A DNA stretch of 64,000 bases, taken from Acidobacteriota bacterium. GTDB lineage: Bacteria; Acidobacteriota; Vicinamibacteria; Vicinamibacterales; Vicinamibacteraceae. The translations under genes and the position numbers were made by a program. Below are positions 3,508-27,819 of this stretch, piece by piece. Within the stretch, counting starts at the first letter, position 1; each line of letters opens with the position of its first letter. Below the pieces are notes generated by a model. It saw only the letters and a program-made list of their open reading frames with translations. It was not told where the DNA came from and searched no databases. The DNA lies in NCBI GenBank assembly GCA_020845575.1, contig JADLFL010000055.1:1-64000 (forward strand), read 5' to 3'.

Positions 3508-3521
3508 GCCCTACAGGGTAG

Positions 3522-3690
3522 CCGGCAACCGGCAATGCGACATGCCGTCCGGCTTGTACGGGCACTTGCTGGAGGCCAGGGGCTTCAGCCCCTGGCGCCG
3601 ACGCACGGGTGAAGCCCGTGCGCTCCAGTGTGAAGAAGGCGGCGACCGCTTGCCCGATGGCCGGTGCCCGGTGTCCGGTGCCCGGTGCCC
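3522..3690. repeat. intergenic mosaic of palindromes and heptamer repeats
   Basis: The gap between two minus-strand genes is almost wholly repeats. Two CCGGCAA heptamers lie at 3522-3535. A 22-bp palindrome built on GCCAGGGGCT / AGCCCCTGGC occupies 3575-3596. A second palindrome with arms GCACGGG / CCCGTGC is at 3603-3621. Four tandem heptamers, GGTGCCC with one GGTGTCC, fill 3663-3690. Related palindrome and heptamer copies recur at 26365-26430, and heptamers at 27749-27777. The hairpins could stop or process transcripts of the upstream 3693-7250 gene, whose stop codon lies just at the edge of the heptamers. There is no T-tract. Confidence 0.75.
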
Positions 3691-22151: not shown

Positions 22152-22157
22152 GGGGAC

Positions 22158-22284
22158 GGCCGGGCTCGGAGAGCCGGCCCTACCTACTGCGAACGAGGCA
22201 GAAGGGGCAGGTAGGGCCGGCCCTCCGAGATCAGGTGGGGCCGACTCTGCGAGATTGGGTAGGGCCGGCTCTCCGAGCCCGGCC
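22158..22284. repeat. 24-bp tandem repeat array with inverted partner
   Basis: Three head-to-tail units start at 22210, 22234 and 22258 with an exact 24-bp period (consensus opening GGTAGGGCCGGCTCTCCGAG). A fourth copy at 22158-22184 is inverted and pairs perfectly over 27 bp with 22258-22284. The stem ends 3 nt before the tctC GTG. The unit length is 8 codons, so the frame stays open through the array. A further copy lies at 26283-26309. Confidence 0.85.
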
Positions 22285-22287
22285 GCG

Positions 22288-25214: not shown

Positions 25215-26357
25215 CTACCTCCACACCGTCGCGGCGATGTAGCGTTCGGGGCCTGACTGGTCGTTGAAGTAGTACACCGACACGATGCGGCCGTCGGGGC
25301 GGATGACGGACCGGGGATAGCCGAGGTCCCAGTCCGCGGCGCCTTCACGCAGCGTGCGCGGCGACGACCACGTGACGCCCGCATCGTCGCTCGTCACCAC
25401 GCAGATGCTGAACGGCGCGGCGCGCAACCCGTACACGCAGCAGAGACCTCCCGTTGCGAGCCGCAGCAGGCTTGCCGGATTGCCGCGGCCTGTATCGGCG
25501 ACGACGATGCCGGCCGACGTCCATGTGAGGCCAGCATCACGACTGCGATAGCCCTCGACGTGATGCTGCGTGCCGTCGTTGCGCCTGATGGCGGTGTAGA
25601 GATGCCCGCCGCCCAGTGACACCGTCGACGGCATGATGCGATAGCCGTCGCTTTCGGGTCCGATCCAGCCGAGTCGCTCCCAGGTGAGCCCGCCGTCGCG
25701 CGTGCGCAGCGTGAGTGGACGGCCTTCCCTGCCGTTGGTCTTGAGCGCCGTGATGAACACCAGCAGTTCGCGCGGCCCGACGACGAGATGGTCGGTACGC
25801 GGATCGAGTCCCGGCGTGTCGAACGCGGGGATCTGATACGGCCCTGACCACTGGCGACCTCGATCGCGCCCGACGTACATCCACGCGCCGGGCGTGCCGT
25901 GCGAGGCGCGGAAGGTGAGTGCCAGTCCAGGCGACGTGAAGTCGAGCGGCGCTGACAACGTCTGCACAGTTGGGAGGCGCAGCGGCTCGCCCGTGACGGC
26001 GCGACGTTCGGGGCGCGGCGGCGGTTGCAGCGTCGCGGGGACTTCGAGCGCCCACGTGCGCCCGCCGTCGAGCGACCGCGACAGCACGTGCTGTTCACCG
26101 GCGGATCTGTCGATCGGGTGGCGATTCGGATCGCCCGTCTTCAACACGCCGGCCGTGAACCCGACGAGGATTTCGTCGCCCCAGTTCCAGATGCCGTGGT
26201 TGGCCGGCCACCCGCCGTAGCGCCCCTTCTCGCGCCAGACAGTGACGTGCTCGACGTCAGGCGCCGCCGACGTGCCGAGAAGGGCCGGGCTCGCAGAGCC
26301 GACCCTGCCAACGACGAGCAGACCGGAGGACGTGAAGAGAAACGCGCGTCGATTCAT
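25215..26357 (-). CDS. secreted Asp-box (sialidase-fold) hydrolase-like protein
   Basis: 380 residues from the ATG at 26357. The N-terminus MNRRAFLFTSSGLLVV is Tat-like, and the following GRVGSASPALLG segment is encoded by a copy of the 24-bp repeat. Four Asp-boxes mark a six-bladed propeller: RSLDGGRTWALE, RTRDGGLTWERL, RSRDAGLTWTSA and TSDDAGVTWSSP. YRIMPSTVSLGGGHLYTAIR and PRSVIRPDGRIVSVYYFN resemble the substrate face of BNR_2 hydrolases. It is a second member of the same broad fold as the protein at 16764-17843, with low similarity. It lies downstream of the DapA-family gene on the same strand and is separated from it by repeats. Specificity is unknown. Confidence 0.8.
   Translation of the reverse strand: MNRRAFLFTSSGLLVVGRVGSASPALLGTSAAPDVEHVTVWREKGRYGGWPANHGIWNWGDEILVGFTAGVLKTGDPNRHPIDRSAGEQHVLSRSLDGGRTWALEVPATLQPPPRPERRAVTGEPLRLPTVQTLSAPLDFTSPGLALTFRASHGTPGAWMYVGRDRGRQWSGPYQIPAFDTPGLDPRTDHLVVGPRELLVFITALKTNGREGRPLTLRTRDGGLTWERLGWIGPESDGYRIMPSTVSLGGGHLYTAIRRNDGTQHHVEGYRSRDAGLTWTSAGIVVADTGRGNPASLLRLATGGLCCVYGLRAAPFSICVVTSDDAGVTWSSPRTLREGAADWDLGYPRSVIRPDGRIVSVYYFNDQSGPERYIAATVWR
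26283..26309. repeat. in-frame copy of the 24-bp repeat inside a signal peptide
   Basis: 27 bp that differ at three positions from the arm at 22158-22184. Read on the minus strand it encodes GRVGSASPA, nearly the same peptide (GRAGSPSPA) and the same phase as the array upstream of tctC. Confidence 0.75.
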
Positions 26358-26364
26358 ACCGTTC

Positions 26365-26430
26365 GCCAGGGGCTGGAGCCCCCGGCCTCCATTCGCCCGG
26401 TCGGTTGCCGGTTGCCCGTTGCCGGTTGCC
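26365..26430. repeat. palindrome plus four tandem heptamers between two genes
   Basis: GCCAGGGGCTGGAGCCCCCGGC (26365-26386) is an imperfect copy of the 3575-3596 palindrome. Four heptamers with exact 7-bp period (GGTTGCC, GGTTGCC, CGTTGCC, GGTTGCC) follow at 26403-26430. The block fills most of the 80-bp gap between the DapA-family stop and the Asp-box gene start. Confidence 0.75.
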
Positions 26431-27540: not shown

Positions 27541-27819
27541 ATGTCCGCGTCCTTGCCCCACACGCATCCGCCCCGAGTTGGGAGGGGACGCGGAGCGGAG
27601 AACGGCATCCGTCCGTTCATCAGCGTGTCGAGGCCACACCATGAAACTCCCGAGCCCGAGTCGTGTCAATCGAAATTTGGTACGGCGGCCGCATTTTTGA
27701 AACGAGGTACCGATCGTTGAAAACCTGCCGTCGCCTGAGGCCTAATGACCGGCAACCGGCAAACCGGCAACTGGCAACCGGGTCGTCCACATCCTTCGTC
27801 CTCCGTCTTCGGTCCTCTC
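27541..27819. other. intergenic region with AT-rich patch and heptamers
   Basis: No gene is seen. On the minus strand TTGACA (27664-27669) with a weak TTTCAT 17 bp on (27641-27646) could be the old promoter of the decayed receptor. On the plus strand TTGAAAC (27697-27703) and TTGAAAA (27717-27723) are direct repeats in an AT-rich patch. TTGAAA with CCTAAT 18 bp later may be a promoter for the isomerase-like gene. Heptamers CCGGCAA/CTGGCAA occupy 27749-27777. Confidence 0.4.

Follow-up and report, generated by a model that had tools for sequence, protein, structure and literature searches.

A GTAG-tagged palindromic repeat in frame within the predicted signal peptide of an Asp-box protein gene of an Acidobacteriota bacterium

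Introduction

The window analysed here, a 64-kb stretch of DNA, contains on its reverse strand (25215-26357) a gene for an exported-type BNR/Asp-box protein of 380 aa (BNR_2, E 1.3e-15), which begins at ATG 26357 with a Tat-like signal, MNRRAFLF. Within this signal lies a short palindromic element, and a preliminary description had pointed out that another copy is found just before the signal of a tctC-type receptor gene in the same window. It offered two explanations, either the coincidence of a mobile extragenic repeat or a repeat that tolerates translation and builds signal-peptide c-regions. The question raised by this locus is whether the repeat has any particular tie to export signals, or whether it belongs to a mobile family that was merely tolerated in one of them. 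GTAG REPs, their RAYTs, the TAG stops that they provide for neighbouring genes and their intragenic copies are treated in passages of Di Nocera et al. 2013 (PMC3733652). We consider it very probable that a GTAG-tagged REP spread in the genus, most likely by means of a RAYT (Y1/HUH), that one unit is tolerated in the Asp-box signal and that the tctC copies are ordinary.

Results and discussion

The element belongs to a genus-limited family of GTAG type

Copies were sought with a degenerate 22-base core pattern, GGGCCGGCTCTSCGAGCCCGGC, with up to 3 mismatches allowed and the same pattern reversed as control. The genome to which the window belongs (G000) gave 155 core matches against 3 for the reversed control, and the window itself gave 3, at 22159(-), 22262(+) and 26284(-), against a shuffle mean of 0.01 (100 shuffles). 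Core matches in the congeners numbered 189 in G001, 104 in G004, 19 in G002 and 1 in G003, while a pool of 35 further relatives gave 53 against 76 for the control; among the genomes searched, it does not extend beyond the genus.

The edges of the unit were defined by stacking 111 copies from G000 and 70 from G001, palindromic double readings being left unmerged. They proved sharp in both genomes, running from the GG of GGTAG to the last CC, and the unit is 27 nt long, GGTAGGGCCGGCTCTCCGAGCCCGGCC. The preliminary description had placed the Asp-box copy exactly, at 26283-26309, and its size of 24 bp is corrected to 27 nt by information content. A perfect stem and a GTC tail characterise the G004 unit, which is ~30 nt long. 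The G004-form pattern found 220 strand matches in that genome against 1 for the control, and in many cases a single palindrome was matched on both strands. The G, G and A of the GTAG tag (GGTAGGG...) are 86-99% conserved and its T 63-91% in three genomes, again with double readings unmerged. The family thus has the form of a GTAG REP, a palindrome of 20-40 bp with GTAG at one end; the Asp-box copy itself carries GCAG. Five of the six reading frames of the unit are without a stop, and the sixth holds TAG.

Changes in the stem were frequently paired. Watson-Crick double changes numbered 7 in G000, 3 in G001 and 11 in G004, against 2.33, 0.15 and 0.54 expected under independence (21 against 3.0 in total), the remaining changes being 46 single pair-breaking, 26 single G-U and 1 non-pairing double. 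These counts, which carry no formal test and come from copies that may share ancestry, support a hairpin kept by paired changes, as in GTAG REPs. Close neighbours (<200 nt) were arranged -+ in 12 of 16 cases in G000, whereas the five real close opposed pairs of G004 were all +-, so that the pairing geometry differs between the two genomes; double readings were left unmerged for these neighbour counts as well.

Copies lie mostly in spacers, and some are translated within genes

A sample of 287 distinct copies was assembled from G000 (110 of its 155 matches, the sample ending within the 2-mismatch class), G001 (71, against 189 matches, chosen mainly near exact copies) and G004 (106). Genes were called by a script using a Markov model, with long ORFs as its training set, and a palindromic copy matched in both directions was counted once in the location, frame and stem-change tallies. 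Intergenic copies numbered 219, a further 9 overlapped a gene end and 59 were located in called CDS, coding sequence making up 83-89% of the sampled loci; insertion into genes seems to be selected against but not forbidden. The suggestion that a mobile-type repeat tolerates translation was thus borne out, with 59 of the 287 sampled copies in frame inside called genes. Where both neighbours of a spacer were known, the orientation was unidirectional in 37 cases, convergent in 27 and divergent in 13 for G000, and 34, 11 and 8, respectively, for G001, the gap bases in these two genomes being 10,128 and 6,433 for divergent and 4,833 and 3,957 for convergent spacers. High copy number, a mostly intergenic location and a place in unidirectional or convergent spacers are all features of GTAG REPs. 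At five loci of G000 (L077, L076, L093, L101 and L032) the GTAG tag, judged by position, gives the TAG stop of the adjoining gene.

The 59 coding copies are read as GRAGSPSPA (23), AGLGEPALP (17), GRARRAGPT (7), the opposite-strand GSESRPY (7) and GPALRARP (5), the sixth, TAG-containing frame being without coding copies by construction. The bias over the five open frames gave a chi-square p=0.0004, in a set in which some copies are paired or common by descent.

The 27 coding copies of G000 are found in 22 genes, 18 of which have a Pfam match, and the genes concerned include purL, clpA/clpB-type, mfd-type, Mur-ligase-domain, class I glutamine amidotransferase and alpha-amylase-domain genes. A palindrome translated within a conserved gene, as in the RPE of Rickettsia, is seen in purL, where a ~28-aa insert of element-like repeats is lacking from all four congeners. 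Comparison with solved PurL chains placed the extra residues after query residue 478; the partial purL protein modelled with AlphaFold gave a mean pLDDT of 36.5, too low to tell whether the insert is a surface loop. In a methyltransferase-domain gene, elements of G000 and G004 occupy the same variable linker in opposite orientation, which suggests that the two would be separate insertions. The amidotransferase C-terminus bears an element in both G000 and G001, and the Clp-type case is weaker because its linker varies in all species. The ceramidase-type gene L095 was considered as an exact-length insertion and rejected, since its alignment with the four congeners leaves gaps of ~8, 3, 12 and 3 residues.

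Exported proteins are not favoured at the level of gene neighbourhoods

Signal-like N-termini were flagged by a simple hydrophobicity rule, and a gene was taken as element-adjacent when a copy lay between -150 and +120 of its called start; this test counts genes, and palindromic double readings were left unmerged. The element-adjacent genes that looked exported were 18/36 in G000, 13/34 in G001 and 25/60 in G004 (p=0.21, 1.00 and 1.00, respectively). For the three genomes together, 56 of 130 adjacent genes were scored as exported against 206 of 521 others (p=0.48), and signal-peptide specificity was rejected at this level. The enrichment at exported 5' ends on which the preliminary description had made its proposal depend was accordingly not seen, and of its idea that the repeat builds signal-peptide c-regions there remains the position of the Asp-box codons, which fall where the c-region would be, and not a general link.

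Nine of the 59 coding copies are located in the first 60 aa of the called CDS. Six of these were judged truly coding, L085, L089 and L197 being left out of the signal-peptide count since their true starts may be downstream, and five of the six come after a signal-like hydrophobic segment. Set against a 40% exported background this gives p ~0.04 in a comparison chosen after looking, and we treat the tendency of coding N-terminal copies to come after signal-like segments as a weak lead.

One reading built on such copies is that the unit is shaped for life inside genes and that its insertions favour, among other sites, the junctions between signal peptide and mature protein, where the Arg and small residues that come with the unit would make a working Tat c-region. 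Its basis is a unit length divisible by three (27 nt; ~30 nt in G004), the five open frames, and the share of coding copies, 40 of 59, in the two frames whose products are small and flexible (GRAGSPSPA and AGLGEPALP types). We regard this as possible, though rather unlikely. A rival reading, by which the repeat is selected or specialised to serve signal peptides as a ready-made c-region and so accumulates at exported-protein 5' ends, appears very unlikely. It can draw on the Asp-box copy in its signal peptide, on the L095 copy right after LPARAQ, on those of L147, L150 and L244, which come after hydrophobic segments at the N-terminus, on the related palindrome in the signal region of a paralogous Asp-box gene of G004 and on the five-of-six count given above. 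However, that count is small and was picked post hoc, few coding copies lie near a called start, and exported genes near elements were not in excess in any of the three genomes.

RAYT genes are found in congeners

In the preferred reading the REP was spread through the genus, most likely by a RAYT transposase. Searches with PF01797 gave four matches in G001 (two of them pieces of one place), two in G002 and two in G004. In G000, the assembly of which is 95.84% complete, neither PF01797 nor profile A2, built from four congener RAYTs with the L200 row shortened at its C-terminal end, found a match, and neither of the two gave a match in G003. Palindromes of GGTAGGG type with varied stems were seen near four of the eight PF01797 loci, L207 and L200 (G001), L201 (G004) and L202 (G002), and none nearby at the other four (L203-L206). 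The stems are within 2 mismatches of the core only at L207 and L201, those at L200 and L202 being clearly different.

At L207 (1159-1823 of the G001 locus) a small RAYT gene with PDHLH and YLRQNPVRAGL stretches is placed between inward element variants at 1159(+) and 1802(-), and this locus is likely to be a REPtron for the GTAG-type family. A RAYT near or between the repeats is thus present in the genus and was not found in G000 itself, so that the transposase has to be deduced from the congeners. Relatives of class 3 HUH transposases in Acidobacteria are mentioned in passages of PMC6006769. A RAYT would have made the Asp-box insertion, and with 155 matches yet no detectable RAYT the family may be stranded in G000.

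The Asp-box copy is probably a tolerated insertion

The Asp-box ORF reads MNRRAFLFTSSGLLVVGRVGSASPALLGTSAAPDVEHV, and the element copy, GGCAGGGTCGGCTCTGCGAGCCCGGCC, occupies 26283-26309 on the reverse strand, with its tag decayed to GCAG. It is 3 bases off the 27-nt consensus, has 1 mismatch to the degenerate 22-base pattern and would be read in frame as GRVGSASPA from the conserved ATG, at the end of a hydrophobic stretch (SGLLVV[GRVGSASPA]LLGTSAAPD), which confirmed that the element lies in frame inside the predicted signal peptide. From ATG 26357 to codon 71, which is within the conserved domain, there is no in-frame ATG, GTG or TTG, and any production of the domain from a usual start codon would therefore include the element. 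In-frame starts further upstream of this ATG would also take in the element.

Orthologs in G002, G001 and G004 (71-77% identity) have in common an RR.FL motif near the N-terminus and (V/A)EHV.VWRE. The G000 protein has 34 residues ahead of VEHV; its orthologs in G004 and G001 each have 25, and the difference of nine equals the length of the element. Without the element, G002 has 32 residues (2 shorter) and G003 has 36 (2 longer), the G003 signal region being equal to that of G000 when counted from RR, and a tandem Asp-box paralog in G001 has 44 aa. The long regions of G002 and G003, which have no element, and that of the paralog indicate that length here also varies by other routes, so that for the Asp-box gene a clean gain of 27 nt is likely, not proved. 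The G003 ortholog (L057) is split over two overlapping frames and may be frameshifted or misassembled. A scan of named genomes gave one close ortholog, L304, other homologs having 50% identity or less.

A c-region K or R is present in the G001, G002 and G004 orthologs. In the G000 protein the residues after the insert are without K or R, and the insert supplies one Arg. The insert would now act as the c-region of the predicted signal peptide; the protein is presumably still exported, and the change would have been neutral. In the second, paralogous Asp-box gene of G004 a related palindrome is found in the signal region (TAGSASRPS), the junctions of this paralog being shorter in G001, G002 and G003 and longer, without an element, in G000.

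The tctC side is different. Two exact core copies form an inverted pair in the spacer (22152-22287) that separates the HpcH/HpaI gene from tctC, at 22157-22184 (-) and 22258-22285 (+), the latter ending 2 nt before the GTG of the tctC-type gene (PF03401; 22288-23247, +). This GTG is the likely start. In an alignment with three congeners (the partial G003 piece L211 was left out) the MSLFTRRQFLTAGAVVLAAGC signal can be matched from its RR motif onward, and the upstream sequence does not align. The tctC-side copy does read GRAGSPSPA in the same phase as GRVGSASPA, as had been described. It was rejected as a coding copy, given its place upstream of GTG 22288 in sequence that does not align, and is most likely extragenic. 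Thus of the two copies said to border exported N-termini, that of the Asp-box gene is inside its gene and that of tctC upstream of the likely start. The G004 tctC spacer has an element copy in another frame, so that the common phase of the extragenic tctC copy and the Asp-box copy is a one-in-three coincidence.

Since N-terminal REP copies are often extragenic according to passages of PMC3733652, and this appears true of tctC, the Asp-box copy might likewise precede a real start located downstream. This is highly improbable, as there is no in-frame ATG, GTG or TTG up to codon 71, and the ATG and RR.FL motif are common to the orthologs, with sequence conserved from VEHV on. Nor is it credible that G/A/S/P-rich c-region codons in a GC-rich genome mimic the GC-rich repeat by chance, despite two element-free orthologs of equal or nearly equal region length, when the copy has a single mismatch to the 22-base pattern and such matches number 3 against 0.01 expected in the window and 155 against 3 in the genome.

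The tolerated REP insertion is the preferred reading. A RAYT (Y1/HUH) transposase would spread a 27-nt hairpin unit through the genus, each unit adding exactly nine codons and no frameshift; with five stop-free frames, a copy can persist where the protein segment that receives it is permissive. A single unit would have landed at the boundary of the h- and c-regions of the Asp-box signal peptide, where RVGSASPA would take the place of the c-region, and would have been kept since this stretch tolerates small residues. The tctC copies would be ordinary spacer copies.

Relation to known repeats

The family shares with the GTAG REPs, as presented in passages of PMC3733652, a 20-40 bp GTAG palindrome, high copy number, opposed units, a bias to unidirectional or convergent spacers, TAG stops, association with a RAYT and some in-frame copies. 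It differs in being a sequence family of another genus, absent from the passages of that paper drawn on here. With the Rickettsia RPE it has in common that palindromic repeats are joined in frame to conserved protein genes, which apparently tolerate them (passages of PMC2229807 and PMC3733652). This is a likeness of description; in size the RPE, at 105-146 bp (PMC2229807, in part), do not fit the 27-nt GTAG-tagged unit. A passage of PMC3733652 identifies RPE-4 and RPE-6 with intragenic REPs of R. conorii. The RU-2/YPAL element in YPO1552, as described in part of Delihas 2007 (PMC2759123), is a 168-bp element that makes up part of a putative exported protein's signal, whereas here nine residues lie inside a predicted signal peptide in a gene with element-free orthologs. 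Among the matches listed in literature searches on REP, RAYT, RPE, Acidobacteria repeats and in-frame palindromes, no title or abstract described the present family. It is a genus-limited family of GTAG-REP type with RPE-like in-frame copies, and a new member of a class of mobile repeats already known. Its value lies in a REP of very small size that is read in frame within a predicted export signal, and within purL, for which all four congeners have element-free orthologs. Related genomes, with 1 to ~190 core matches, would make it possible to test directly how REPs enter genes, which of the frames survive and whether host proteins adapt to them.

Two other repeats occur around the Asp-box gene. 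A third repeat, GGGGCTGGAGCCCCCGGCCTCC, lies directly upstream of it at 26369-26390 (+) and again at 3571-3592 (-), these 2 window matches comparing with 0.00 in shuffles. Arrays of a GGTTGCC heptamer, another repeat, are found in the window at 26403-26430 (+), 27751-27779 (-) and 3517-3537 (-), and with a loose pattern 9 of 27 matches in the sampled G000 loci fell within called genes, several of them reading TGNRQPATG.
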